From Mactromeris polynyma (Eukaryota > Mollusca > Bivalvia > Venerida > Mactridae), in NCBI GenBank assembly GCA_032209605.1, contig JASFXZ010000040.1, forward strand, positions 558,001-622,000: 64,000 nucleotides of DNA, in the 5' to 3' direction. Position numbers and translations under genes: made by a program. The number at the start of each line of letters is the position of its first letter. Position 1 is the stretch's first letter. The notes beneath the pieces were generated by a model. That model saw only the letters and a program-made list of their open reading frames with translations, was not told where the DNA came from and did no database searches. Positions 4,871 through 54,944 of the stretch are shown in pieces.

Positions 4871-7800
4871 GGGGTCCATAAAACTTTGGTACAAGTTTGC
4901 AGACTTTGCAGTCAAACTAAAGATTATTTAAGGACCGAAGTGGATCAATGCGGTTCTGTAGGTATCCCAAATCTCTAAGACTGTTGGTTTTATGTCAACC
5001 ATAAACGGATCAGGACGTTTTTATCAATCAGAAAACAATGTTGCCGTTCCACTAAACTACGATGGTATCCTAATAATGTTATACCACAGAGTCTCGTACG
5101 TCATTTAATTCTCGGAGGATTTCATATGTTAATGTGTCAAACATTGTGTGCTTGTCATAATTATAATGCTATTCCGTTCATAAAACATTTTAACATAGCG
5201 TCGATGATATAGATAAAGCGATTACGAATACTCATCACAGTTACACAATTAAATACCCATAATTACGGCTTAAAGCTTTTCGTTCCTAATATGTTTATAG
5301 CCAAATCGATAATACTTCTGATACCATAATGAAACATCTTTCCGTTTTCTTAAATACTCAAGAGTATGAAAGGCGTCATATACACACGTACCGTGTAGTT
5401 AACCATTTTGTTTTGCAATACTAACGCCTACTAGCTTAATACAGCACCAATCTGGAATTAATTAGGTTAGCAGACAGTCGGTAAAATGGCTTCACTTTTC
5501 TTCTCTATTGATATTCACACCTCCGCGTCTTTAGAATCAAACATGCTAAAATATAGTCGAACAGTATAATAAAACCCTTGTCTGCTTAATATTTTATTTC
5601 GCAGCGCCAAATATGGATATCAAGCAAAAGTGTTGTCGCTCCGACAAACGAATTCAATACTTGTGCGGGTATTACGTAATAAAGAATATACTTGGTCAGT
5701 TAGTTGAAGTATTCTAAATTGAGTTTTAGCTCGCCTTTGAAGATTTTCGGACACCCACTGTTTTACATAATACAGCACGCTGTCGACCAAGTAATTCTTA
5801 TATAACTATACGTCACGTATTTAAAGATGGTAAACTGTGCAGAGCACATTGAACATATTGAATATTTCCAGTACTTGTCGACCTTGCAAAGTTGAGATAA
5901 TGAACTCCTCGAATTCATATAATTGCCTGTCCTTCTCAGACGTGACACACTTAACAAAGACACCAGGTTTATGTCCAGTTAATGAAGGACACCATTTTCT
6001 AAACAGAAGATACGTGAATGGTCTTAACGCAAAATAGTATAATATGTTTTAAATGAAATATTAACCTATGAAACGACATTGCCATTCCACAACAATATTT
6101 CATTTTATGTCTTTCATTTTTCCCTCGTTGTTGGTTTTAATAACGATACATGAGGAACCACCACTGCTAATTGCAACAAGGTTTTGCGTATTGGAACCAC
6201 AACCGGCACAAAATAAATTCTAGTGCATCCTAACGTGAACAAATACTTCTAAACTGTATTTACAGACAACCTTGTGTCAATATAAAGCTACACACATGTG
6301 CCGTTGAAGTAGTAAACTACAGAGAGCGATACCACTTTTCATAAAAAACAAGATTTCGCTGATGTCAACAATGTCAGCAAGCTCTAAACGATCGGGTTTA
6401 TGTTTCACGTTTAACACAAGACATAAGCAATCCTATGAGAACTACATTCCCCGATTTTTGAATTTTACACGTATTAACCACTTTAAGGGAAAAAATACCA
6501 CACGCATCGTTCACGTCCAATTTTGACTCATTGGCGCGACAATTAACGATAGAATCATTTGAACATTTTTAACGCATACAAAATGTTGTTGTTACAATGA
6601 GACGCAGGCGTGAATAGTGTTATACATAAACAATACAGTACAATTTACAAACTAAAAACATTAAAATGTTTTATGCCCCGCCAAACGTGGCTTACTAGAC
6701 ACTGAATAATTAACACAATATCACAGAATATCTGAAATGCAATGTTGTTTATATTTCAACATCGTTTAACAGCATCATATATGGAACTAAAACACATGAA
6801 ATCGATTTCAAATTCCTCATATAGTTTAAAGCATGTTTGATATGAAACTTGTCATGTGGTTTAAGACTAGGCGACTAAAATACATGTGCCCAGATAATCC
6901 ACTAGAAAGATACAGAAAGGCACAATGGAAGTTTACATTTCTCCATCATCACTGGAATGCAATTACTTGATTAGATTATGTGAACATGATTCGTTGGAGT
7001 CAACTTAACTCCGCATAGACAACCCATCCAAAACGAGGCTTCTCATTCAAAACGAGGCTGTTCATTGGTATTCGTAACACGATGCCAATGTTCGTACGCT
7101 CTGGCACGTCAATAAATAGCAACATAATAGTATAGCATATCTAAATAAAATCGTAATATCTCCTTTTAGCAAACCTCTTGACAAATTACAAAAGTTCGTA
7201 AATTAATATTGAGACTGTATTCAAAAATGTTGCAAAGAAAAACGTAGATTGCAAGCACCAAACGAGAATATGCGGGAATTCCCGTAACTTTGAAAGAAAA
7301 CATCATATGGAATCAAATTATTTGCCTCAGACAAGATATTATAAAATTCAATTTCAAAGGTAAATAGTTTATTGTACTGACTACAACTTCCCTACATTCT
7401 TAACTTATAAGTTACAAATGATATGTACATATGACTCACTCGTATGAGAAACACAACATGCCTCTTCACTATATGTATATATACAAAAGTACTTTCGGAA
7501 GCGACCAAATATTCCAAAATGTATTGAATTATTAACCCATGAAAACAGTAATATCATCAAACAAAGTTGGCCGTGTATGTTTTTAAAAGCTTTCAATTAA
7601 GAGACCTTACACTTTATATGTAAAGCTTTTTCTCGGTATTCTCTTCTTGTACTTGTGAATGTATTCCATTTATGTTTCAGAAACAAATTACGTGGTATTA
7701 AACAACATACTGCCATTACATATAGATTCATATACAGTTGCATGTACTAGTAGAACTACATATTGTTTATTGTATATCATGTGTAAACTGTTAGGCATCA

Positions 7801-17869: not shown

Positions 17870-19460
17870 GAGGAACCACCACTGCTTCGATTCTAGTGCA
17901 TCCTTACGTGAACACGTGTTTCTAAACTTTATATACAGACAACCTTTTGTCAATATAAAGCTACACACATGTGCCGTTGAAGTAGTAAAATACAGAGAGC
18001 GATACCACTTTTCATAAAAAAAAAGATTTCGCCGATGTCAACAATAAGATTTGGAAAGTTATGCAAGTTCTAAACGATCGGGTTTTTGTATTTGTTCCCA
18101 ACATTTACATTTAACACAAGACATTTAAGCAATCCTATGTGGAACTACATTCCCCTACTTTTGAATTTTACACGTTTTAACCCCTATAAGGGAAAACATA
18201 AGGTCCTACTCACCGTTCACGTCCATTTTGGTGCGACAGTTAACGGTAGAATCATTGGAACATTTTTAACGCATAAAAAAATGTTGTTGTTCCAATGAGA
18301 CGCAGGCATGAATAGTGTTATACATAAAATATTACAATACAATTTACAAACCTAAAACATTGAACTGTTTTATGCCCCGCCAAATGTGGCTTACTATACA
18401 ATGACTAATTAACACAATATCACAGAATATCTGAAAGGCAATGTTGTTTGTATTTCATCATTGTTAAAAAGCACCATATATGGAACTAAAACACATGAAA
18501 TCGATTTCAAATTCCTCATATAGTTTAAAACATGTTTGATATGAAACTTGTCATGTGGTTTAAGACTAGGCGTCTAAAATACATGTGCCCAGATAATCCA
18601 CTAGAAATATACAGAAAGGCACAATGGATGTTTACATTTCTCCATCATCACTGGAATGTAATTACTTGATTAGATTATGTGAAAATGATTCGTTGGAGTC
18701 AACTTAACTCCGCATAGACAACCCATCCAAAACGAGGCTTCTCATTCAAAACGAGGCTGTTCATTGGTATTCATACCATGATGCCAATGCTCGTACGCTC
18801 TGGCACGTCAATAAATAGCAGCATATCTAAATAAAATCTTAATATCTCGTTTTGGCAGTCTCCAAAATGTATTGAATTATTAACCCATGAAACCAGTAAT
18901 ATTATAAAACAAAGTTGGCCGTGTTTGTTTTTAAAGGCTTCAATTAAGGGACCTTACACATTTTATGTAAAGGTTATTTCTCGCTTTTCTCTTCTTGTAC
19001 TTTTGAATCTTTTGCAAGTTGATTTCATCAGGTATGTTTAACCTCAAAATGTAAGAATTAAACAAATGCTACACAATTGTTAAAAAATCTTACCATATGT
19101 ATACATTAATATTTTCCAGAGAAGTCAAAACATTGGCTACAAATGTAATAATTACCATGGTTATATTCGACATTGCTTTGTGCTATAATATAATACATTT
19201 ATATTCTATGTAGACAAATTACGAATTGCCGTAAGACAATAAACCCATTTGTTAGATGCGTGCTTTCACACTGGAAGTTACAAGTGTATTTTATATTCCA
19301 AAGCTAATTATGTTTCCTCCAATACTGACAGCAACAATGCAATAATATTTTCTATTGATACATCTAAGTAAATGAACGTATACAAATCTCCATAATAATC
19401 TATGAAATGCCATCACCCGCCCGAAGGATCATCCTTGTTATTTCACAAAAATTGAGAAAG
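17870..19460. other. No gene seen, duplicated AT-rich sequence
   Basis: Aligns with 6,150-8,270 of copy 1 with deletions (copy 1 positions 7,170-7,500 and 7,640-7,990 are missing here). No supported coding region. Confidence 0.5.
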
Positions 19461-19465
19461 ATCTT

Positions 19466-20135
19466 GCATAGAACGAACATATTTGCCTAGAATGAACCTA
19501 TTTGCATAGAATGAACCTATTTGCATAGAATGAGCATATTTTCATAGAACGAACATATTTGCATAGAACGAACATATATGCATAGAATGAACATACATGC
19601 ATTGAATTAACATATTTGCATTGAATGAATCTATTTGCATAGAATGAACCTATTTGCATAGAATGAACATATTGGCATAGAACAAATACATTTGCATAGA
19701 ATGACCACAGATAGATATAATGAACCTATTTGCATAGAATGAACATACATGCATTAAACGAACATATTTGCATAGAATCAACAGTTTTGCATAGAATGAA
19801 CAGGTTTGCATAAACTGAACAGATTTGTATAGAATGACCACAATTGGATAGAATGAACTTATTTGCATAGAATAAAACTGTTTGCAAAGAATGAATATAT
19901 TTGCATAGAATGAACCTATTTGCATAGAATGAAACTATTAGCATAGAATGGATATATTTGCATAAAACAAACATATTTTCATAGAATTATCATTATAAGT
20001 TGCACAGAATGAACCTATTTGCAAAGAATGACCATATTTGCATAGAATGAACCTGTTTGCATAGAATGAAACTATTTGCATTGAATGAAGCTATTTGCTC
20101 AGAATGAACCTATTTGTATATAATGAACCTATTGT
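19466..20135. repeat. 19-bp minisatellite, about 35 units
   Basis: Tandem array of a 19-bp unit, TATTTGCATAGAATGAACC, with common variants ACATATTTGCATAGAACGA and ACATACATGCATTGAAT. It lies inside copy 2 at the point matching about 8,270 of copy 1, where no such array exists. The minus strand reads as long low-complexity frames rich in 'FYANMFILCK', which I regard as a repeat artefact. Confidence 0.92.
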
Positions 20136-25004: not shown

Positions 25005-25764
25005 TCGTCTTCGTTGAAGTCTCCTTATGGCGGTTTTTGTCCGCCCAGTGTTGTCTTTTGGGAACAACTTATTAGCAAAATTATCTTCGCATTTTGTTTG
25101 GTTATGTTTTTATGGCATTTAAAAAATAAATGCCCGTTATCAACTCATAACCTGTTTTCTGTTGTTCCTTATTCCTATCAAGTTCGCCCAGTGTTTGTGA
25201 CTTCCACTTTTACACCACTTAAACAATACATAAATAAAATTTTATGGGCCCATAAAATCATTTATGTCATTGGAAAGTTTTTCTCTCCGGACCGAATGGT
25301 ACGGTTGTTACGGCTTTTAACTATGATAGCGTCCTTTATGTTGTTCAGCCAATGGCTGCTCTGTATTATAATCACGTGGGATAATCATCCAATCGTAAGC
25401 GTTACAGCCATTACTTTGTGATTATTGACGAAGGTAGCCACCTCGTCATTTTCTAATTTAACTCGTACCACCTCCACCCTTGCCTCCTCCACAATTATAT
25501 TTCAGATTTAGATTTTTCGTTATTTCAAATAAGTTTTTGTTATTAACCATATTTCGTTTTTGTCATTTTGTATTAGCAGATATTTTCAATATTATTCTAG
25601 TTATACATATATATGCATGTAATTCTTGTTATACATATATAGGTAAGGCGGTTTTTGTCCGCCCAGTGTTGTCTTTTGGGAACAACTTATTAGCAAAATT
25701 ATCTTCGCATTTTGTTTGGTTATGTTTTTATGGCATTTAAAAAATAAATGCCCGTTATCAACTC
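25005..25764. repeat. 760-bp repeat block, unit A (R-ITR-R)
   Basis: Nearly identical to 26,374-27,134 (offset 1,369-1,370). Order: CGTCTTCGTTGAAGTCTCC, 118-bp repeat R, about 500 bp holding the terminal repeat, then R again. R starts GGCGGTTTTTGTCCGCCCAG, with a small GGCGG/CCGCC hairpin, and ends CCCGTTATCAACTC. Reading frames across this block are repeat-derived and appear in duplicate. Confidence 0.88.
25234..25467 (+). repeat. DIRS-like element, extra terminal repeat (outer copy)
   Basis: Second copy of the same terminal repeat, one base shorter (GTCATTTTC instead of GTCAATTTTC near its inner end). It has the palindrome at 25,239-25,258 and again lies between 118-bp direct repeats (25,029-25,146 and 25,647-25,764). 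Confidence 0.8.
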
Positions 25765-26373
25765 ATTGATATTTAAGATCGAACCAACGGTCCAGGCAAC
25801 ATTTCAATCCTGGTGGACTATGTGCACAAGCCAAACAATATTAAGTACAAACACCCATACTGGTGTTTTTATTTTTATCACCAGGCAGAATTTTATGATG
25901 ATTGTCTTATGACAAAATGGTTGAAATTATAATGTTATCAGCGTTTCACATAATGGTTCATTCTATTTTTATGCACAAGGACAAACAAGTCACCTGGCGG
26001 TCAAGGCAGCCGGGTGCACTATTGTTCTGCATATATGCTGTACATAGATAGAGATGCTGATTTATTTTCCAAGGAAAAGTTTCAGATATATATGAATTAT
26101 AAGAAGTCACTTGTTGTACATATCGGTTTTGTGCATGTTTTGTTAAAATGTATGTATATTCTTTTATAAATGTATTTACAAGAGTTTGATATTACCCACT
26201 GTGTTATAAAGGTCAAGTATTTTTGGGGCCAATTGTCTTTAAGATGTTTTCATACTTTCATCACTATAGGTTAGTTCATATATCCATATCCAAAGTAATT
26301 AACAAGTAATTCCCTAGATCTTTTTTAAGTGAGGTAATATGGGTTATCGTACAAACGGGCTCTCTGGGCGGTG
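25765..26373. other. 600-bp spacer between the two repeat blocks
   Basis: Single-copy within the window. Neither strand gives a plausible reading frame; in particular I do not find the missing recombinase C-terminus (no RHRY-type 'HxLR' pattern). It could be host flank caught between two insertion events or element tail. Confidence 0.5.
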
Positions 26374-27134
26374 TCGTCTTCGTTGAAGTCTCCTTATGGC
26401 GGTTTTTGTCCGCCCAGTGTTGTCTTTTGGGAACAACTTATTAGCAAAATTATCTTCGCATTTTGTTTGGTTATGTTTTTATGGCATTTAAAAAATAAAT
26501 GCCCGTTATCAACTCATAACCTGTTTTCTGTTGTTCCTTATTCCTATCAAGTTCGCCCAGTGTTTGTGACTTCCACTTTTACACCACTTAAACAATACAT
26601 AAATAAAATTTTATGGGCCCATAAAATCATTTATGTCATTGGAAAGTTTTTCTCTCCGGACCGAATGGTACGGTTGTTACGGCTTTTAACTATGATAGCG
26701 TCCTTTATGTTGTTCAGCCAATGGCTGCTCTGTATTATAATCACGTGGGATAATCATCCAATCGTAAGCGTTACAGCCATTACTTTGTGATTATTGACGA
26801 AGGTAGCCACCTCGTCAATTTTCTAATTTAACTCGTACCACCTCCACCCTTGCCTCCTCCACAATTATATTTCAGATTTAGATTTTTCGTTATTTCACAT
26901 AAGTTTTTGTTATTAACCGTATTTCGTTTTTGTCATTTTGTATTAGCAGATATTTTCAATATTATTCTAGTTATACATATATATGCATGTAATTCTTGTT
27001 ATACATATATAGGTAAGGCGGTTTTTGTCCGCCCAGTGTTGTCTTTTGGGAACAACTTATTAGCAAAATTATCTTCGCATTTTGTTTGGTTATGTTTTTA
27101 TGGCATTTAAAAAATAAATGCCCGTTATCAACTC
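26374..27134. repeat. 760-bp repeat block, unit B (R-ITR-R), joined to the recombinase ORF
   Basis: Its last base is the breakpoint inside the recombinase gene. Here CCCGTTATCAACTC is followed by TTGTCTAATG, while the other three R copies continue with A (ATAACCTG twice, ATTGATAT once). A change of partner sequence at the same edge four times points to a recombination or insertion boundary at ATCAACTC. Confidence 0.85.
26603..26837 (+). repeat. DIRS-like element, 3'-side terminal inverted repeat (inner copy)
   Basis: Inverted relative to 32,101-32,335 and identical in length. It has the terminal palindrome at 26,608-26,627. It is embedded between two 118-bp direct repeats (26,398-26,515 and 27,017-27,134), so on this side the terminal repeat is not at the edge of the repeated block. 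Confidence 0.8.
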
Positions 27135-27475
27135 TTGTCTAATGTAAAAGGCTGACGTTTATCCGATTGCTTGTTCTTACGAAGGCTGTGCAACAATTTT
27201 GTAATCATGAAATTGTTTGAAGGGTTCTCCAGGCCCTGCACCTTATGAATGTATGCAATAGCAGATATATAAGATGTGATAGTTGAACATTGGAGATGGC
27301 GGTAATGACATACTGCAATAAATTGAGCCAGTTGATTAACCGATATGGGAATTGTACTGGTTCCTGGATAATGGGTGTCATGAAATGTCTGATAATGCTT
27401 CAGGGCATTTTTGTAACTAGCTTTTGTAGCTGGTGCTAAACCTGCATCTAGCAAACTGAGAACAGTCTTGTTCAT
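27128..27475 (-). pseudogene. Tyrosine recombinase, N-terminal fragment only
   Basis: The first 112 or so residues match the SAM-like core-binding domain of DIRS-type tyrosine recombinases: LLDAGLAPATKASYKNALKH, then VNQLAQFIAVCHYRHL, TITSYISAIAYIHKVQG and ITKLLHSLRKNKQSDKRQPF. The catalytic domain with its R-H-R-Y residues is entirely missing: after 'FTLDK' the frame runs into the 118-bp repeat at 27,134 and stops two codons on. The ATG at 27,475 overlaps the RT stop codon (ATGA), which suggests translation by termination-reinitiation in the intact element. The fragment cannot catalyse recombination, so this copy would need an enzyme from elsewhere. Confidence 0.85.
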
Positions 27476-29241
27476 TGAAGCGTGAGTAACTCCTCCGGAA
27501 CTGGTGTGGGGAGCTCGTCCATGAGTGGAGCCAGTGCTCGAAATTTGTCGATCTGAAATCGAGATAGGAGATCGGGTAGGACATTGTATTTTCCCATCAC
27601 GTGTTCGGCCCTAATAAGAATGTTGTTTCTCATGGTAGCTAACACCAAACGCCTAACTAGGGCCATAATGATGGGTACTTTGGATGTTTGCTTGTTAACA
27701 ATATGGACAACAGCTTCATTGTCAGTATGTAAGATAATGCATTGATTTTGTAATTGGTATCCCCAAATCTCAAGAGACAGAACAATTGGTAAAAGTTCTT
27801 TGAATGTTATGTTGTACTGTAACCAGACAGATGACCATTTACCAAAGAACCATTGATGTTTGAGGATTGCCCCATATCCAATAGAACCTGACGCATCTGT
27901 ATGGAGATGAAAAATGTCTGTTGAAAACCATCTTTTATGCAATAGCAACTGCTTACCATTGAAATGTTCAGTAAAAATTTGCCAGGCCTTGATGTCTTTT
28001 CTGCTCTCTTTATTTAAAGTTATACGGTGGTGCTGTTTAGTAACTTTCTTAGTTAGATCAGTTAAGCGTCTTAAAAAGCACCGGCCTGGGACCACAACCT
28101 GACAGCAGAAATTCAACAAACCCAATAAAGATTGTAAGTCTTTGAGAGTAATTTTTCTTGAAGAAGAAAATGATAAAAGCTGTGATCTCAGCTTCATCAA
28201 CTTGTCCCTGGGAAGTCTAGCTTCCATGTTGTCTGAATCTAACTCAAGACCCAAGAAAGTGATAACCGTTGTTGCATTTTCTGTTTTCTCTTTTTTAATT
28301 GGAATCCCTACCTGTTTACATAGACACAAGAATTTATCTAGATTATCTTGGCAAACTGAAGAATTAGGAGGACCCAATATTAGAAAATCGTCAAGTATAT
28401 GGACCATGTGCTTGATGTGAAGGCGTGTTTCTGAAATATGTTGTAACGCACAACTGAAACGTTCAAAAATTGCACATGATGAAGAAGCCCCCATTGGAAG
28501 ACATGTATCATAGTAGTATTTCCCCTCAAATGTGAAACCTAAAAGGTGATGATCATACGGGTGAATTGGAATTAACCTAAATGCTGAGTCTATGTCTGTT
28601 TTGCTAAACAGAGTCCCTCTGCCTAATTCCAACAACAATTTGATTGCGTCATCAAAAGATGAATATGAAACTGTGGACAGATCTTCAGCAATAAAATCAT
28701 TTACTGAATGACCATGTGGATAACTTAGATGGTGAATTAACCTAAATTGGCCCTGCGTTTTTTTGGGGACCAGGCCTATGGGACTGATTCGTAAATGTTC
28801 CAAAGGTGGGGTATCAAATGGACCTTTTAATCTACCGATATCAAGCTCAACTTGGATCTTGCGGTTAACCTCTGTAGGATTTTCCATACAAGACTTTAAG
28901 TTTGATGATGAAGTTGCTACTCTAGGGCCAATATAACCTAGTTTAAAACCCTCCTGGAAACCCTTGATTAGATAATCATCAAAGATATAACCTTTCACAT
29001 AGTTTGCAAAAATGTCTACTTTGACTGGTGTAACTACTTTATCCTTATTTTGCCGTTTTACTGGGATATGCTGCCGTTGTTGACCTAGGGGCTGATACTG
29101 ATTTCCCAGCTTGTTCTTTGCTGGAATGACTACAGTTGTAGGCTGCATGGGTACCTCTGCAGAACCCACAGACATGGGGGTGAGGACATTTGGATGCATG
29201 ACATTGTGATCGTTTGTTGAAATTCCAGCATGTTTGGTCAA
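27472..29241 (-). CDS. Reverse transcriptase / RNase H of the DIRS-like element
   Basis: 589-aa intact ORF. The RT palm lies at about residues 130-340: ISPIGLVPKKTQGQFRLIHH (153-171), FSKTDIDSAFRLIPIHP (212-228) with catalytic Asp216, LPMGASSSCAIFERF (248-262) and the active-site box HILDDFLILG with Asp284-Asp285, in place of the usual YxDD. Then FLGLELDSD (329-337) and the connection. RNase H follows with HTDASGSIGYGA (Asp449), FKELLP (Glu482), LHTDNEAVVHIVN (Asp507) and NVLPDLLSRF (Asp557), a DIRS-like ending. All catalytic residues are present. No methyltransferase or integrase domain follows. The likely true N-terminus is uncertain because the first ~70 codons overlap Gag in a different frame. 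The stop overlaps the next ORF's start as ATGA. Confidence 0.93.
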   Translation of the reverse strand: MTKHAGISTNDHNVMHPNVLTPMSVGSAEVPMQPTTVVIPAKNKLGNQYQPLGQQRQHIPVKRQNKDKVVTPVKVDIFANYVKGYIFDDYLIKGFQEGFKLGYIGPRVATSSSNLKSCMENPTEVNRKIQVELDIGRLKGPFDTPPLEHLRISPIGLVPKKTQGQFRLIHHLSYPHGHSVNDFIAEDLSTVSYSSFDDAIKLLLELGRGTLFSKTDIDSAFRLIPIHPYDHHLLGFTFEGKYYYDTCLPMGASSSCAIFERFSCALQHISETRLHIKHMVHILDDFLILGPPNSSVCQDNLDKFLCLCKQVGIPIKKEKTENATTVITFLGLELDSDNMEARLPRDKLMKLRSQLLSFSSSRKITLKDLQSLLGLLNFCCQVVVPGRCFLRRLTDLTKKVTKQHHRITLNKESRKDIKAWQIFTEHFNGKQLLLHKRWFSTDIFHLHTDASGSIGYGAILKHQWFFGKWSSVWLQYNITFKELLPIVLSLEIWGYQLQNQCIILHTDNEAVVHIVNKQTSKVPIIMALVRRLVLATMRNNILIRAEHVMGKYNVLPDLLSRFQIDKFRALAPLMDELPTPVPEELLTLQ

Positions 29242-30355
29242 GAAACCGTTTTGGTTTGTCTTGGCGAAACTGACTGTTGAATTGTTTGGGTTGACGAAAG
29301 GACTGAGTTGGCTGAAAGGACTGAAAAGATTGACTGGGTTGAAAATTGGTACATGCCATCAGCCAGAATTCTGTGTGGAGTCTATCCCAAGGTATCAAAA
29401 CGGACTCCCTTAACATTCTAAATTGCGTGTCGTAAAACTGGAAAGCTAGACCAGTACGACGGTTGGCAATGTCGCGAACAATTTCCGCATACTTCATCAG
29501 CTGAGCAGTTTCAGTAGGGTATTGGACACAATAAACTGCTGTGAACCTTAAAAAGGCAGATGTCCACATATCGATGTTGGTAATTTTCTTAGTGTAAGAA
29601 TTGGGCATGATAGAAAGGTTTGCATGTTTATCCATTTGTAACGTAAATTTAGGTTTGTTTGCCATAGCATTGTTGGAAGTGGGCAATAGAATTGCCAAAT
29701 CTATAAATTTGTTATTCCAAATATCTTTACGGACTGATTTTTTAATTTGATTAACTATAGGGGTACTGATTGGTTCAGCATATTGAGTGCCATTACCTGC
29801 TATAAGGCTTTTTGCATGACCCGAAACCGCCTGATTTACTGATGTAATAGTTTCCTGTTCATCATCAGTGTCCGACTCATAAGCATTTAGGGCATAGTTC
29901 TGGCTCTGTAAATTGACACCACCTTGCAAAGTTCTTTGCTGCCTAGCAGCACCCATCATCACATGTGCTTGTAAATCACCGGACTGTGGTGTTCTCTGCT
30001 CCCTGTTATTAGCTGCTGGTGCATGATCTTGAAATGTCACATTGTCACTTACATAAGCTTGCTGTGGCGTGTCACTAATATTGTCATTATTGGTTGACAG
30101 GTCACGCCCCGCACTAACTGAAATGGTTGGTTCATGTCCCACACTGACAGAATGTGTTGGCTGATCCGGTCCCACACTAACCGAAACAGTGTCTCTTTGT
30201 GGCACTGCTGTAATATTTGCACTCTGTGAATGGGTGTGAGTGTCATTGCCCGTGTCTGTGGTATTTGGGCGTTTACTCTGACTAGTTCCACAACAAGAAC
30301 ACGTAGAAATGGTTTGGTTAGTGGCCTTCCTCTTTGACTTTCTTGTTGGTCTCAT
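29045..30355 (-). CDS. Gag-like nucleocapsid protein of the DIRS-like element
   Basis: 436-aa intact ORF. The N-terminus is basic with a CSCCGTSQSKRPN cysteine cluster (residues ~19-31). A long polar region rich in Gln/Thr/Asp with repeated SVSVG/ISVSAG motifs runs to about residue 200, and a folded-looking middle (about 205-340) contains WNNKFIDLAILL and MWTSAFLRFTAVY. The C-terminus carries two zinc motifs: a Cys/His cluster CWNFNKRSQCHASKCPHPH (C-x8-C-x4-C-x3-H) and a knuckle CGFCRGTHAAYNC (C-x2-C-x3-H-x4-C). This fits a DIRS-type Gag that coats element RNA. The last ~200 bp overlap the RT ORF in another frame, so RT would need frameshifting or re-initiation. The start at 30,355 is the first Met of the frame; the upstream 90 bp are AT-rich. 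Confidence 0.82.
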   Translation of the reverse strand: MRPTRKSKRKATNQTISTCSCCGTSQSKRPNTTDTGNDTHTHSQSANITAVPQRDTVSVSVGPDQPTHSVSVGHEPTISVSAGRDLSTNNDNISDTPQQAYVSDNVTFQDHAPAANNREQRTPQSGDLQAHVMMGAARQQRTLQGGVNLQSQNYALNAYESDTDDEQETITSVNQAVSGHAKSLIAGNGTQYAEPISTPIVNQIKKSVRKDIWNNKFIDLAILLPTSNNAMANKPKFTLQMDKHANLSIMPNSYTKKITNIDMWTSAFLRFTAVYCVQYPTETAQLMKYAEIVRDIANRRTGLAFQFYDTQFRMLRESVLIPWDRLHTEFWLMACTNFQPSQSFQSFQPTQSFRQPKQFNSQFRQDKPKRFLDQTCWNFNKRSQCHASKCPHPHVCGFCRGTHAAYNCSHSSKEQAGKSVSAPRSTTAAYPSKTAK

Positions 30356-30627
30356 CTGAAAATAACAGAAGTATGTGATGTGTGAAAATAGGAATGGACA
30401 GCCAAACCACTACTTCAACATGAACCCATGAACTGGCCACCTTTAATGTAGTGGTGAGCCACTCGCTTGACTTTTTGGCTATTTAATATTATTAACCAAC
30501 AAACCTCGGACATTAATCCTTAACTGGTAAGTATAATTACCATATTTCGATAATGCCACACAAAACTGTAACTCCATGAAACACTAAAATATGTATAACA
30601 TAATGCTGGAAATAATAAATAAATATG

Positions 30628-30917
30628 TGTCGGAACTGGCAACTAAACCGACAAAATATTGTTGTGGCATGAACTGGCAACTAAATCATGCAAATGTGAC
30701 GGGAACTGGCAACTAAATCCCGTAAAATTATATACCCAGACATGCACTGGTAAATAAATCATGTAATAATGTGTGTGGTGGGAACTGGCTACTAAATCCC
30801 ACAAAATACCTAGTTTGGCATGAATTGGCAACTAAATCATGCAAAATATGTTGACGGGAACTGGCAACTAAATCCCGTAAAATTCAATATACTGCATGAA
30901 TTGGCAGATAAACTGAC
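30628..30917 (-). repeat. Array of eight hairpins with a conserved loop and covarying stems
   Basis: Plus-strand loop ACTGGCAACTAAA recurs eight times at 32-41 bp steps, each flanked by a short complementary stem. Units with stem arms: 30,628-30,653 TGTCGG/CCGACA; 30,667-30,691 GCATGA/TCATGC; 30,699-30,723 ACGGGA/TCCCGT; 30,740-30,764 ACATG/CATGT; 30,778-30,802 GTGGGA/TCCCAC; 30,818-30,842 GCATGA/TCATGC; 30,854-30,878 ACGGGA/TCCCGT; 30,894-30,917 GCATGA with a lost right arm. Two stem types alternate (CATGA-like and GGGA-like), giving a dimer of about 76 bp. It lies between the hydrolase ORF and the Gag ORF, so in the element RNA it would form a row of stem-loops with loop UUUAGUUGCCAGU. Confidence 0.88.
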
Positions 30918-31286
30918 ATTGTGACAATAAACCTATTGGTACATATAAATACAATACATGAGACCAGTGAGTCCACAGTCGTCTCAAATGTCACTACAGC
31001 AGAGTGTCTTTGTTGCAAATAAATAGGGATGGTGCATAGACATCTCAAACTGTAAAATATGCAAAGCCATTAGACTATTTAGTATTGAGAAACCGTATAA
31101 TATGGATGTGCCGACATATAATGACAAGCTGAAATAGCACTAGGTTAAAGTCTAGATTGTATATAAAGCAATCCGATTATGAACCCTGCTCTATTTATGA
31201 CATGTCTCAATCGGTCGCTTGCATATAAGTTAACCAAGGGTATAACTCAAAAACAGTAATAAATCATACGTATCTTAAAGACCACC

Positions 31287-31904
31287 TCATATTGACTGTC
31301 TCAGGGCGGCGACCACTGCGGCTCGTATGTTGGAAATCAACCTGAGCTGACCAGAGTTTGATAGGTGGCAACCGTCTTTTGCAAAGTTCTTTTCTTTACT
31401 TTCCGTAGACCAGAATCCTTTCATTCTCCATAGGTAACTTCTCCCATGATCTGACTTATTCAGCATTTCGGATAACAAAATGTTCAGTTCATCCACCCTG
31501 GCATTATACAACTCAGGGTTTACAGGATATCTTGAATGACGCAATGAGTATCCCCGGTGTAACACTTGCATCACCAACACTTTACTAACTCCTACTACAA
31601 ATAGTAACTGTTCCACTAAATCGACAATTTGATGAGCAACCGCTCTGGGTGTAATGTTCACGTCGTAAATGTCATTCGTACCCACGAATAAAACAACTAT
31701 GTCTGGCTGGAAATCGCTGATAACTTCAACATTTCTCATCAAATTTTGTACTTTAGCACCAGGATATCCCGAATATTGTATTAGAGGGTGTCCGTGTAAA
31801 TTCAAATCAAACTTGAAATCGTCCGAATGTCTGACAAACTCCCTCAAACGTTTAACAAAAGAATGTCCGAATAACTGAATTTTCTTTGTCGTGGGCGCCG
31901 CCAT
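31287..31904 (-). CDS. SGNH/GDSL-family hydrolase, first ORF of the DIRS-like element
   Basis: 205-aa intact reading frame. It has the block layout of SGNH hydrolases (serine esterases/lipases): block I at residues 12-16 as FGHSF, with Ser15 in the nucleophile position (GHS instead of GDS); Gly49 in YPGAKV as possible block II; block III GTNDI at 75-79 with the oxyanion Asn77; block V DGCHLS with Asp177 and His180. The substrate is unknown. Esterase domains of this type are known in ORF1 of CR1-like LINEs and, as I recall, in some Ngaro-type tyrosine-recombinase elements, where their role is unresolved. It lies 197 bp inside the 5' terminal repeat, in the same orientation as Gag and RT, so I take it as part of the element and not a host gene. 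The start MAAPTTKKIQLFGHS fits a cytosolic protein; there is no signal peptide. Confidence 0.82.
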   Translation of the reverse strand: MAAPTTKKIQLFGHSFVKRLREFVRHSDDFKFDLNLHGHPLIQYSGYPGAKVQNLMRNVEVISDFQPDIVVLFVGTNDIYDVNITPRAVAHQIVDLVEQLLFVVGVSKVLVMQVLHRGYSLRHSRYPVNPELYNARVDELNILLSEMLNKSDHGRSYLWRMKGFWSTESKEKNFAKDGCHLSNSGQLRLISNIRAAVVAALRQSI

Positions 31905-32100: not shown

Positions 32101-32335
32101 TACGAGTTAAATTAGAAAATTGACGAGGTGGCTACCTTCGTCAATAATCACAAAGTAATGGCTGTAACGCTTACGATTGGATGATTATCCCACGTGATTA
32201 TAATACAGAGCAGCCATTGGCTGAACAACATAAAGGACGCTATCATAGTTAAAAGCCGTAACAACCGTACCATTCGGTCCGGAGAGAAAAACTTTCCAAT
32301 GACATAAATGATTTTATGGGCCCATAAAATTTTAT
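32101..32335 (-). repeat. DIRS-like element, 5' terminal inverted repeat
   Basis: Reverse complement of 26,603-26,837 with no difference seen by eye, and of 25,234-25,467 with a 1-base indel. Its outer edge carries a perfect 20-bp palindrome, ATTTTATGGGCCCATAAAAT, at 32,311-32,330; homology stops five bases beyond it. The outer flank is a (CA)n/(TA)n tract. A promoter would be expected here, since it is the 5' end of the element, but none was identified. Confidence 0.85.
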
Positions 32336-33550: not shown

Positions 33551-34656
33551 GTTGATAATCAGGTGTGTCATCATCGCTGTCATATATATATATATATAAT
33601 ACTATTTATAATACTGGAAAGAAAAATCCAGTAATTTCATTGGTTAAAGGCTCGCTTATAGGATTCTATATACACGGCGCTGACAGGGTATATGACGTTT
33701 TTCCCTTCATGCGCCTCGTGACAATTTTCGCTGACAGCGCGACTCGAAAACTTTTATCTCTTGATATCCGCAAGTTACTAGAAATTGACAATTGATCTTC
33801 ACACATGATTCAATAAATATTGAACAGAGTACATGTGTGCTAGTATTAATATTCAAAACGATAGATTTTTTAAGGTTTGAGCCAAATTCAGTTCGATAAA
33901 GTCCATGAGATCAGACGCTTGAAAATAAAAATTAGAGTGCAAGCGCGCGCTTAAACATGTGTATTGAGGTACCTTACGGGGTAATGCAATTAATTTTCAG
34001 GCATTATAACGTGTGAGTGAAATAAAAGAAATTTGATCTACAACAAATAATTCCCGATATATTTTTAAAGGAATACGTTTTAATAACTGATATTTTAAAA
34101 TACTCTAAACAATTTTATGAACCAAAAACACCAAAAATACACATATCTAATTATTAGATCTAGAGAGCTAGGCATCGAAGCATTGCTTGTTTAACTAAAT
34201 TCGTATGAAAACATGGAATTGCAGTATTATAAACTCGTTATACAGGTAGTTGACAGGGTATATGGGGGAATATAACCAGTCTGCGATTCATATAACCCTC
34301 GGCTAACGCCTCGGGTTATATGGCACACAAACTGGTTATATTCCCCCATATACCCTGTCAACAACCTGTATAACTAATAATATAGCTCTAGTTGTACGAA
34401 ATACTTTATTATCTTGTGAAAGATAAATGCTTAGTTCAACGACGATTTATTTCAAACTACTTTGTGTAATATATGACTTATTCCTATTGAGGTTTTATTG
34501 TTGTACAATAACACTTACTAATAGTAAGTTACTTACACATTGACAAAATGTACATAAACATGTAATACTCTGTAGACGATGTACATTGTACAAGTCTTAA
34601 TACAATGTATTTTCTTTTATGTTGATAATCAGTTGTGTGATCCTCGCTGTCATATG
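33551..34656. repeat. ~1.1-kb segment with 36-bp direct repeats at its ends
   Basis: GTTGATAATCAGGTGTGTCA at 33,551-33,586 recurs with a few changes at 34,621-34,656 (both continue CGCTGTCATAT). Between them lie a (TA)n run, a GACAGGGTATATGACG block (33,680) and the foldback at 34,237-34,374, whose outer part repeats GACAGGGTATATG. The direct ends could be a duplicated target or leftovers of a mobile element; no ORF inside is convincing. Confidence 0.45.
34237..34374. mobile_element. Foldback element with 44-bp arms
   Basis: Left arm 34,237-34,280 and right arm 34,331-34,374 are reverse complements at 43 of 44 positions (the arms contain GACAGGGTATATGGGGGAAT). The 50-bp centre holds a second, smaller inverted pair (TATAACCC / GGGTTATA). 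No coding capacity. It would form a long cruciform or RNA hairpin. Confidence 0.88.
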
Positions 34657-51178: not shown

Positions 51179-51871
51179 ATGCGTGGCTGTCGTAGTGGGT
51201 CATTCAACTTCAGAATGATGTTGCGTAAGCTGTGTTTGTTTGCTCTTGTTGTTGTCAACGATGGAGTAGCGCCGTTTCTTGGAAACAGTAAAGGTAGCTC
51301 CCCCCGACCAGTCGCTGACACAAATTGCGGTAAAGTGAGTGGAATATGGTCGCCAATTAGCGATGCATATTCTTTCCGTGGAATACCTTATGCAAGTCCT
51401 CCAATCGGGGAGTTAAGATGGCGTCCGCCGGAACAAACCAGTAAAGAACACAACAATTGCTGGAGAGGCACATACATTGCAGATAATTTCGGAAGCCCGT
51501 GTGTTCAAAGAAATGCCACTTCAAATGTCATTGGAGATGAAGATTGCCTCTATCTGAACGTGTTTACTCCGACGCTTAATTCAACTGCAAATCTTCCGGT
51601 GATGTTTTGGATTCATGGCGGTTACCTAACATATGGGAATGGAAATATGAATGATCTAGGTTATGCACCAACACCGGAATTGGCCAGGTCTCTGAACGTA
51701 GTATTTGTGAGCATCAACTATAGGCTTCAGGCGTTTGGATTTATGGCTTTGGAATGGTTAAAGATTGGCTCTCCGACTAACACCTCCGGAAACTATGGGT
51801 TTATGGATCAGATTGCAAGCTTGCAGTGGGTTCAAGATAATATCGGCAGTTTTGGCGGGGATCCCACAAAG
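51179..51871 (+). CDS. Esterase exon 1
   Basis: Carries the signal region, the EDCLYLNV signature and the HGG oxyanion hole. It ends ...GGDPTK at the donor AAG|GTTCTT (phase 0). The family usually continues 'VTxFGxSxGG', which is exactly what exon 2 supplies. Confidence 0.9.
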
Positions 51872-54494
51872 GTTCTTGAAATATACTTAATGCTTTTAAA
51901 ACACATTTAGTTAGCATTGTACAAATGTCATCTAATAAGCATACTACTTTTAAATATGCATGAGAAAATGTATCATATCATATGTTCCGCAAAAGCAAGT
52001 TTAACGTTGATGCTATCATGTTGTGATAATTGGTTGATCATAAGTATGAACTTACCTGTTGAAATCTAAATACCGCCAACTGGCTTATTTATAACACACT
52101 TTACATAATGTAATTGCTTACCAATGCCATGGTGTTATTTGTAGAGGACCAATACTTTACCTTGAATACATGGGGAGCTTTATGTTAACTTTCATAATTC
52201 AGGTAACGGTGTTTGGACAGAGTTCTGGTGGTACATCTATATTTGCGTTACTTGCTTCACCCTTGTGCAAAGGTCTCTTCTCGAAAGCTTGGATGGTGAG
52301 TGCTTCCCCAATCATGAACAAAACTGCCCCACAAGCATTTGAGGACAATTTGGTATTCGTGAATAATACAGGGTGTTCTGATGTTGAATGTCTGTATAAG
52401 TTATCCGCATCTGATGTTACGAAAAGTGTCCCTTGGGATGAGTTTCCTTATTGGGGAATGGTTGATCAACTTAGTTTACCAGAGGAAGGTTTATTTGACG
52501 GAGCTTTACCTATAGTAGACGGTAAGAAAGTCTGAATTGTAACTTATTTCGTACTTAATATACTATATACAAGCAATATATTGTCAATCAAACATATTAT
52601 TAATATTCTTAATATAATAAAATATGATATAATAAAAATGTTTAACATCAATGGATTGCTTTGAAGATGAAATGAAAAGAAAAATGTGTTTGTTTCGGTG
52701 GAAGATAAAAAAGAGTTAATTTCGTGCATACCAGACTTACATTGTACTCGTGGCTACACCACTCGTGAACATATTTAATCTGATGTTCAGTCGATGATAT
52801 TCGTTTTGATCAAATCATATACACATAATAATATGCATTAATTCTGGTTCGGTTAACCGTTAAAACAGAGTTGTCGGATAACTGGTTGGCTCTAGTGAGC
52901 TAAACACAACTCTGTATGACGATGATACAACACCTTGTAAGCGTGGTAGCCCATAAGAGAAGAATATGGAATCCAAACGAGAGAAGAGATCAAAAGCAAT
53001 GTTAGTTTTCACTGAATTCTGATCGTAGCCTCATAAGCATTATATGAACGCATACACTGCTCAACGAAGTTTGAATCTCAAATTAGTCGCATCATGTGTA
53101 TTTTTACGAAAAATCAACACACAATAAACGCGCGATGTTCGTTAAATGACAGTTATTAATTCTTGAAGTACTGTTCAATGCTAGAAAACAGCTAATGATA
53201 TTCTCACTCCGAACCCCTATTTTAATAAATACGGTGGTAACATTTTCGATATCTTTTCAAATTTAATCTATTTTTCCGCTAATACTAATTTACATACCAT
53301 ATCTCAGTAGGGACGATACTTTTATGGTTTATATATGTGTTTGTTTCAATGTTACAGGATATGTCCTGCAGGAATCACCATTCGATGCATGGGTAAATGG
53401 ACATGGCAATGATGTTCCAGTGATGATCGGTAATTCATAGTTTTATTATCGTTATAAACTGTTTACTCGTAGAATGCACAAGACACATTTATAACGCATG
53501 GACAGAAATGATACTGCATCTGAATAAGATATTAGAGCAATGCTATATAGACAGAGATGTTTGTCAGTTAAGATTGTAAATTAATAGTGCATGGCGGACC
53601 AGTTCTAAAGAATTACATGTACCTAATATTAAGCTGATTACGTCCGTATCTTAGATACAAAACAAAGCAAGATGTAATAATGCAATGAATCAGTTTGCAG
53701 ATGTGCCGTCACAATGGTACTTAAAATTACTTTATATGCACATAGCATATTCTCAGCATATTATAAGCTGTGTAAAACTGGAAACATGCTGATTAAACCC
53801 TATTTCTGCCTACATCTATTGCTGCATATAATAATATTCGAGATTGATGCGTCATATGCATGAGCGTTTTGCAGGAACTACAGCACAAGAAACTGATTTC
53901 ATTCCTAGACCTTCAGAAGTCACAACCTGGTCATGGAAAGAAGACGTCGACAATTACACAAACCTGGTCAATGATACACTACGTCAATATGGAGACGTGG
54001 TGTTACGATTAGCGTTTGATCTTTATCCAATAAATGTATCAACACCAGAGTTCCAGCTTACAAGTATGGTTTCTGATATGCGTATGAATTGTGGTAATGA
54101 CTATCTATCCATAATATTGGCTGGGTCCTTTCAGTCTCCTGTCTATCGTTACGTGGCAACGTATTATTCATCGACCAAATCGGCATTTCCATTAGGATCT
54201 AAGTTAGCAGTGAGATACGCCTTCCATGGCATAGATATACTTGGGTTTTACAAAACTATGCACACTGCATATCCTGAGGGTGTCGACGAGCGTGATATAG
54301 CATGGGAAAACAACGTGCAGCGTGAAGTAATGTCGTTTGTACGAACAGGACATCCAGAGAGTCCGACATGGTCTACTTACCCGGATGTTACAGCTGAGCT
54401 TGACGTAACAACCACAGTGGCCAGAGGCTACCACCCAGCACAGTGCCAGTTCTGGTTAGCAAATGGCTTTTACTCATACTCATGGATCAATTAA
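51179..54494 (+). CDS. Type-B carboxylesterase / cholinesterase-like serine hydrolase, four exons
   Basis: Exons 51,179-51,871, 52,203-52,521, 53,358-53,429 and 53,875-54,494 join in frame to 567 codons, close to the usual family length. All introns are GT-AG (331, 836 and 445 bp; phases 0, 1 and 1). Family motifs: FRGIPYA.PP (67-75), EDCLYLNVFTP (121-131), oxyanion-hole HGG (146-148), nucleophile GQSSG with Ser238, Glu367 in IGTTAQETDF and His479 in FHGID, so the catalytic triad is complete. Cys108 and Cys123 are at the conserved disulphide positions. A hydrophobic run LCLFALVVV follows Met13-Met14; starting there gives a signal peptide, hence a secreted ester hydrolase. No C-terminal membrane segment is seen. 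The substrate is unknown: xenobiotic, juvenoid-type or cholinesterase-like roles cannot be separated by sequence reading. Confidence 0.9.
52203..52521 (+). CDS. Esterase exon 2 (nucleophile exon)
   Basis: Opens at TTCAG|GTAACG with VTVFGQSSGGTS, containing catalytic Ser238. It ends after ...PIVDG at GACG|GTAAGAAAG (phase 1). Confidence 0.92.
53358..53429 (+). CDS. Esterase exon 3 (72-bp microexon)
   Basis: Between acceptor GTTACAG and donor G|GTAATT; encodes YVLQESPFDAWVNGHGN then DVPVMIG, the strand leading to the acidic catalytic residue. It is too short to be found as a stand-alone reading frame. Both edges have phase 1, so skipping it would keep the frame. Confidence 0.85.
53875..54494 (+). 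CDS. Esterase exon 4 (Glu and His of the triad)
   Basis: Starts after TTTTGCAG with TTAQETDF (Glu367), contains YAFHGIDILGF (His479) and the family's C-terminal 'WP.Y' region as WSTYPDV, and ends ...YSYSWIN with TAA. There is no GPI-type or transmembrane tail. Confidence 0.92.
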
Positions 54495-54622: not shown

Positions 54623-54765
54623 CACAACCCACTCAGTATATACACGTAAAGCCTCTAATTGTTTATTATAATTGTTTTAATGATGTTTAATATATCAAGT
54701 CGCGTGTGTCGCCCGTCCTGGTTTCGGTTCTCAATCTACAAACATTTACTTCAAACAATTGGTTT

Positions 54766-54944
54766 GATGGATATGCACTAACGTGTGATGGATATGCACC
54801 AACGTGTGATGGATATGCACTAACGTGTGATGGATATGCACTAACGTGTGATGGATATGCACTAACGTGTAATGGATATGCACTAACGTGTGATGGATAT
54901 GCACTAACGTGTGATGGATATGCACTAACGTGTGATGGATATGC
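54766..54944. repeat. 21-bp minisatellite
   Basis: Eight and a half units of GATGGATATGCACTAACGTGT with two single-base variants, 270 bp after the esterase stop. Since 21 is divisible by 3, all frames remain open on both strands, giving repeats such as DGYALTC and AYPSHVS. There is no start context or flanking domain to support translation. Confidence 0.92.

Follow-up and report, generated by a model that had tools for sequence, protein, structure and literature searches.

In retroviruses the packaging signal psi lies upstream of gag and is recognised by the zinc fingers of nucleocapsid. The constitutive transport element of simple retroviruses is a single element of constant sequence that works through a host export factor. 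Plant LTR retrotransposons carry fast-changing tandem repeats in their untranslated regions, and we know of no constant-loop hairpin in these repeats. To our knowledge there is also no explanation of how tyrosine-recombinase (YR) retrotransposons recognise their own RNA, or of how the many families in one genome are kept separate. Ngaro-like elements are YR retrotransposons with split direct repeats (PMC8547959, PMC9210276), and the hydrolase of amphibian Ngaro elements is located after the YR (PMC9210276), according to the accessible portions of these papers. Searches of open-licence PMC papers for the element or its repeats gave no description of hairpin arrays in YR retrotransposons.

This study was concerned with an array of stem-loops in a retrotransposon of the bivalve Mactromeris polynyma. 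The stretch of DNA that was analysed, 64,000 nt in length, is called the window.

The carrier element

The element is read on the minus strand and has the order 5' repeat, SGNH hydrolase, hairpin array, Gag, RT/RNase H and tyrosine recombinase (Table 1). About 270 nt separate the 3' edge of the array from the Gag ATG. In the window copy the recombinase frame is broken off at about 27135 by a rearrangement, and the SAM-like N-terminal domain in the remaining fragment scores above the Pfam cut-off. A recombinase frame of 350 amino acids is found in two other copies. It contains HSFR, which we take to be the recombinase motif, and matches Pfam Phage_integrase with E 3.9e-4, which is below the cut-off (20.7 vs 27.1 bits).

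The RT/RNase H frame expected of a Ngaro-like element is present, and so are split direct repeats of the form A1-[ORFs]-B1A2B2, as judged from the 3' stretches of seven other copies. Five of these copies have the 5' repeat again at their 3' end in direct orientation, one has it inverted and one gives no match. A YR motif lies upstream in the 3' stretch of four of the five direct-repeat copies, and in one copy the repeat flanks A2 on both sides, as expected for B1-A2-B2. The repeat region of the window is inverted relative to these five and looks like inverted terminal repeats because its 3' end is rearranged. Inverted terminal repeats like those of DIRS1 were thus seen in one other copy and in the window, against direct repeats in five of seven. 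The element looks Ngaro-like on these features, rather than DIRS-like with inverted repeats. The original prediction had placed the array between the hydrolase and Gag of a DIRS-like element; the position and the assignment to YR retrotransposons stand, and the DIRS-like label probably does not.

Several other repeats were noted. The C107 copy (L038/L039) has about 3.1 kb inserted in the spacer between hydrolase and array, and its two matching pieces overlap by 7 bases, as a target-site duplication would give. Elsewhere in the window, a 67-nt inverted repeat at 34237-34374 (4 nt between arms, 88% complementary) is foldback or MITE-like. Tandem arrays of 14, 19 and 21 bp at 2614-2879, 19464-20133 and 54765-54944 are unlinked to the element. 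A 19-bp tandem pair of identical consensus at 7025-7066 and 18724-18765 is probably part of one dispersed repeat, and two carboxylesterase-matching frames at 51179-52535 are probably host-gene exons.

Table 1. Features of the element in the window, and hairpins of related groups (5' arm-loop-3' arm)
Feature	Position	Strand	Remarks
5' terminal repeat (A1)	32101..32335	-	5' element boundary 32335 within a few bases
SGNH (GDSL-like) hydrolase frame, 5' of array	31287..31904	-	PF13472 E 4.1e-9
Array, eight stem-loop units	30628..30918	-	element sense strand is minus; sense loop UUUAGUUGCCAGU
Unit 1	30628..30653	-	stem TGTCGG/CCGACA, loop 14 nt
Unit 2	30667..30691	-	stem GCATGA/TCATGC
Unit 3	30699..30723	-	stem ACGGGA/TCCCGT
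Unit 4	30740..30764	-	stem ACATG/CATGT; mismatch at innermost pair; loop motif 3 mismatches
Unit 5	30778..30802	-	stem GTGGGA/TCCCAC; compensated vs units 3 and 7
Unit 6	30818..30842	-	stem GCATGA/TCATGC
Unit 7	30854..30878	-	stem ACGGGA/TCCCGT
Unit 8	30894..30918	-	broken; arms of two types; loop motif 3 mismatches
Candidate 3' splice site	30356..30370	-	pyrimidine-rich tract and CAG directly before Gag ATG
Gag-like frame	29045..30355	-	C-terminal CCCH and CCHC zinc-finger patterns
Reverse transcriptase / RNase H frame	27472..29241	-	RVT_1 E 5e-14, RT_RNaseH 6e-7
Tyrosine recombinase frame, N-terminal part only	27128..27610	-	Phage_int_SAM_1 E 9.5e-5
Rearranged 3' repeat region of window copy	25005..27134	.	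repeat comparison
L062/63/64/72 hairpin			GGGG-TTTAGTTTACATG-CCCC
L066-69 hairpin			CAGA-CATAGT-TCTG
L073 hairpin			CAGA-CTTTGT-TCTG
L070/71 hairpin			TGCAC-GGGATGGT-GTGCA
L074 hairpins, alternating			CGGA-CATGTA-TCCG; CGGG-CTGGTT-CCCG
L075/78 hairpin			GGTAAG-CCAGGTT-CTTACC
L076 hairpins			CGGG-CTTGTA-CCCG; CAGG-GCTTGTA-CCTG
L077/84 hairpin			CGGG-CTTAGTA-CCCG
L079-83 hairpin			AGGGT-TTTTC-ACCCT
L085 hairpins, alternating			CGGG-GTAAT-CCCG; CAGACATA/TATGTCTG type
L086/88 hairpin			CGGGC-TTAT-GCCCG
L087 hairpin			CTGCA-TGTATT-TGCAG
L089 hairpin			GTATGT-AAATG-ACATAC
L092 hairpins			ACCA-TGTAAT-TGGT; GCCA-TGTAAT-TGGT; GAGCC-...TGTAAA..-GGCTC

The hairpin array of the window

The eight units are spaced 32-41 nt apart. 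The original prediction had described an invariant loop and arms that pair perfectly in at least six units. The second statement was confirmed: 6-bp stems are perfect in six units, five of the six pairs form in another, and the last is broken, with one arm TGTCGG-like and the other CATGA-like. The first holds in the weaker form that the loop is nearly constant, as the 14-mer AACTGGCAACTAAA is exact in only four of the eight units, with one mismatch in two and three mismatches in two. When the units are aligned with the loop as anchor, identity between them is 0.88 in the loop, 0.50 in the arms and 0.44/0.33 in the flanks.

A search of the host genome (793 Mb, 299 contigs) identified the array in eight near-identical copies, and it is thus not private to one copy, as the original prediction had considered. 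The eight array loci are the same eight that match the window Gag at 100%; they are too similar to one another to serve as a test of selection or covariation. Rfam gave no match at the gathering score in the window or in 11 related loci, and none up to E 1 in the window spacer.

Covariation was compared with 500 shuffles using the seven distinct units. The proportion of stem cells that pair was 78.6%, against 61.0 +/- 4.2 in shuffles; there were eight cells with a two-sided change, against 2.5; and the covariation score was 0.492, against 0.199. None of these three values was reached by any shuffle, even though the unit with the 14-nt loop was counted out of register, which lowers the score. 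Two-sided changes were found in four of the six stem pairs, a count matched by 26 of the shuffles, and the number of further pair types was ordinary (reached by 246). When the partner column was slid by 1-3 positions, pairing fell to 24-50%. In addition, the 5' and 3' halves of all eight units were re-paired at random, which gave -26.5 +/- 6.5 kcal/mol against the observed -50.1 (P = 0.0004), a mean cost of 23.6 kcal/mol for swapped halves. The units arose by duplication and are not independent, so these P values are strong without being formal probabilities. The original claim of covariation, as opposed to plain tandem copying, agrees with these results, which support the view that the loop and the capacity for pairing are under stronger selection than the sequence of the stem.

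Arrays in related families of the same genome

With Gag as query the host genome gave 96 scored loci (28-100% identity), and with the hydrolase 136 matches. A hydrolase precedes 70 of the 96 Gag loci on their own strand at a distance of up to 4.5 kb (median 1660 nt before the Gag match). This pairing was computed with 100 of the hydrolase matches; the other 36 were checked by eye against the 26 Gag loci left without a partner, and none was within 4.5 kb.

The stretch upstream of Gag was read in 19 groups, namely the window family and groups at 29-61% Gag identity. The grouping of loci, the presence of an array and the Gag start sites are judgements made by eye. An array of hairpins upstream of Gag and downstream of the SGNH-hydrolase frame was seen in 15 of the 19 groups. 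These are 15 of the 17 groups with a hydrolase in at least one member, and neither of the two groups without it. For example, L070 has no nearby hydrolase and its relative L071 has one. L065 and L090 have the hydrolase and no clear array by eye, and L091 and L093 have neither a nearby hydrolase nor, by eye, a hairpin array. The L091 Gag group comprises about a dozen loci without a nearby hydrolase, and the one locus read has a 51-bp AT-rich tandem repeat upstream of Gag.

Arrays number about 5 to 20 hairpins in a row, and each array-bearing group has stems and loops of its own (Table 1). The unusual trait of these elements is that the position of the array is kept and its sequence is different in nearly every family read. 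In L092, UGUAA[U/A] loops are kept on the unlike stems ACCA/UGGU (with a G-U variant) and GAGCC/GGCUC. By eye, many loops contain GUA or GUU. The arrays of L066, L076, L077 and L079 are regular 20-28 bp tandem repeats with nearly uniform units.

Selection on the hairpins

Compensation was analysed in 13 clean sets of units, picked by array register and loop only; L075 was left out of this rerun. P was below 0.05 in five sets: clearly in the window (P 0.0004) and in L092 (0 of 5000 swaps as good), and weakly in L074 (0.015), L084 (0.034) and L076 (0.049). The other eight (L062, L063, L064, L072, L066, L070, L073 and L085) were not significant, with P of 0.22-1.0. In some of these eight the lack of significance reflects nearly uniform units; the pairing of most families is thus preserved through sequence identity, and compensation there is at best putative. 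Lower P values obtained for L084, L085, L062, L072, L064, L066 and L075 were withdrawn because the unit lists held junk anchors, and uniform hairpins mixed with junk give lower P without any compensation. The original prediction had looked to other copies for stems changed without compensation. Other families do keep hairpins on different stems at this position, which leaves the prediction unrefuted, but compensation was detected in only five of the 13 sets.

Identity within units was compared with that of their flanks. Loop identities in this comparison are raised by the anchoring itself, and pairing served as a filter for short-loop units. In L089 identity was 1.00 in the loop and 0.95 in the arms, with flanks at 0.37/0.44 and a spacing of 55-122 nt. 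The values were 0.97, 0.76 and 0.26/0.30 in L063, and 0.90, 0.96 and 0.41/0.37 in L070. Flanks were nearly as conserved as the hairpins in L085 (0.84/0.71), L074 (0.49/0.69) and L075 (0.55/0.48), and L086 yielded just two units for this comparison.

Between copies of the same group, variable columns were fewer in units than in the rest of the spacer in L070/71 (0 of 90 vs 136 of 886, P 7e-7) and in the L062 group (6 of 117 vs 82 of 657, P 0.011). The difference was not significant in L075/78 (0 of 57 vs 30 of 757, P 0.11). These three comparisons are the ones that counted real units only. In a count that had included chance loop matches, hairpin and other spacer columns did not differ when L066 was compared with L073 (109 of 233 vs 141 of 295 variable), and two sets of near-identical copies carry no information. 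Together, the comparisons support selection on the hairpins.

Gag and a candidate splice acceptor

The window Gag ends in two finger patterns, named by eye: CCCH (C376-x8-C385-x4-C390-x3-H394) and CCHC (C396-x2-C399-x3-H403-x4-C408). This pair is almost invariant across 40 sequences, and the named relatives of the protein are mostly from bivalves (Dreissena, Mya, Ruditapes). Fingers of both types bind single-stranded RNA in many proteins. Among 10 families, with a single hand-picked hairpin for each, hairpins are more alike where Gag identity is higher (Mantel r 0.49, P 0.0035), and so are loops (r 0.45, P 0.008). This tracking fits coevolution and also plain vertical inheritance.

In 13 of 14 groups the Gag ATG is preceded by a YAG at a distance of 0-3 nt. 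With at least 10 pyrimidines in 15 as a further requirement the count is 12 of 14, against 21 of 652 background upstream ATGs, for which an offset of up to 5 was accepted, and the Gag starts were picked by eye. In L075/78 the CAG precedes TTG in place of ATG. A consistent splice donor was not found with a simple weight matrix of donor-site frequencies; by eye, several families share a motif with GTAT beyond the hydrolase stop, but it scores weakly. Given the acceptor-like site before Gag, the array may be intronic and present only in unspliced RNA.

Folding energy and strand

As sense RNA, the whole stretch of the window array folds weakly better than shuffled sequence (z -1.35). Folding is stronger as antisense RNA (z -3.67) and as DNA (z -4.87 and -3.84). 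Among 14 regions the antisense z-score was the lower in 10, and values were modest on both strands. Regional z-scores were dropped as proof because some Gag coding stretches were also negative (to -4.9). The sense strand was G+T-rich in all 13 regions measured (0.53-0.63), so that its shuffles fold better through G-U pairs. Wobble pairs favoured neither strand (13 GU vs 11 AC cells). Shuffles of single units on the sense strand gave mostly P 0.005-0.15; the combined Fisher values were not relied on because units of L062, L066 and L073 were mis-cut.

Discussion

The arrangement suggests that the arrays are a rapidly evolving tag for the element's handling of its own RNA. As the main reading, to which we give a probability of about 0.4, it is proposed that the array acts in cis in the unspliced genomic RNA, as a repeated element to which Gag binds for packaging; this is one of the three roles named in the original prediction. 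Each unit would be a short stem presenting a family-specific loop. Unspliced full-length RNA would retain the array, and the Gag mRNA would lose it by splicing. The CCCH and CCHC fingers of several Gag molecules could then contact the loops, and such multivalent binding would single out unspliced RNA of the same family for assembly into particles and for reverse transcription. Observed are the arrays and where they lie, stem compensation in a small number of families, hairpins better conserved than their spacers, and the tracking of Gag; that RNA is the actor, that the sense strand is used, and that splicing, Gag binding and packaging occur is what we infer. As would be expected of a packaging signal, the array lies 5' of gag by its position in the sequence and consists of conserved stem-loops that covary, clearly in the window and L092 and weakly in L074, L084 and L076. 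The packaging reading is weakened by the strand tests, in which sense RNA has no advantage. A stronger version, in which each Ngaro-like family has a private loop code read by the zinc fingers of its own Gag, with mutual exclusion in packaging, is doubtful on present sequence data.

Other explanations keep the array in RNA and give it a different partner or role. Binding by a host protein in place of Gag, with control of the intron-containing RNA through nuclear export of the CTE type, splicing or stability, is unlikely in our estimate. The place of the array upstream of an acceptor-like site would suit this, and so would the GUA or GUU seen by eye in many loops, which resembles short host RNA-binding motifs. 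However, a shared host factor should hold one loop constant, and the stems and loops differ among families in one host and track Gag. A translation element, which would let ribosomes enter or reinitiate at Gag when the RNA begins with the hydrolase frame, could be proposed from the location of the array between two frames, with its 3' edge a short distance before the Gag ATG. We consider it very unlikely, as the acceptor-like site in 13 of 14 groups suggests that Gag is reached by splicing.

A role of the hairpins in single-stranded DNA or in antisense RNA, such as in first-strand cDNA or at circularisation, is also rather improbable. The z-scores of the window (-4.87 and -3.84 as DNA and -3.67 as antisense, against -1.35 as sense RNA) and the lower antisense values in 10 of 14 regions point in this direction, and DIRS-1 makes antisense transcripts and circles, according to the part of the source available (PMC5633606). 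However, the sense strand is G+T-rich in 13 of 13 regions, which lets its shuffles gain stability from G-U pairs, the wobble states do not favour antisense, and the arms vary, unlike recombinase half-sites. An array of tyrosine recombinase sites, which would have conserved arms and a variable core, is a poor match for this reason: the window has the opposite, with arms at 0.50 and loop at 0.88. No more probable is a mutational by-product without function, in which units are duplicated by template switching and stems are perfected by arm-to-arm copying. The regular 20-28 bp repeats with near-uniform units in L066, L076, L077 and L079, the recombinant look of unit 8 and the lack of compensation in most clean sets are all as this process would predict. 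By itself, however, it would not keep loops while stems change (window and L092), would not keep hairpins over drifting, irregular spacers, and would not account for the location of the array, between hydrolase and Gag, in 15 of 17 groups.

If each family does have a private loop code read by its own Gag, array and Gag would form a fast-coevolving lock and key, with many repeats to raise avidity, and the two would change jointly when new families arise. Hairpin arrays in the same place span Gag divergence down to about 30% identity, and more than a dozen families in one genome would be a natural experiment in RNA-protein coevolution. Each family offers a concrete small target, one zinc-finger protein and one 25-nt hairpin. 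The arrays may also explain short hairpin-bearing tandem repeats otherwise filed as satellites.

Comparison with known systems

The Mactromeris element shares Gag, RT/RH, YR, split direct repeats and an SGNH hydrolase with the Ngaro-like elements, as these appear in the accessible portions of the accounts (PMC9210276, PMC8547959). The hydrolase lies before Gag here, unlike in amphibian Ngaro (PMC9210276), and those portions mention no hairpin array (PMC9210276, PMC8547959). The array resembles retroviral psi in having stem-loops just 5' of gag, a zinc-finger Gag and a place that would mark unspliced RNA. It differs in having about 5-20 copies in a row, loops and stems private to each family and another element order, and Gag binding is putative here. 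With the constitutive transport element it would share the retention of a structured element in unspliced RNA, whereas that element is single and constant and is served by a host factor. As in plant LTR retrotransposons, fast-changing tandem repeats occupy a noncoding part, although the order of those elements differs from that of the Mactromeris element. The dispersed packaging signals of MS2 and STNV are alike in that many short hairpins bind coat protein, according to the abstracts (PMC4836477, PMC3593212, PMC3662417). Those signals are spread over a viral genome, whereas the hairpins described here form a single block in a retrotransposon, with Gag as the candidate partner.
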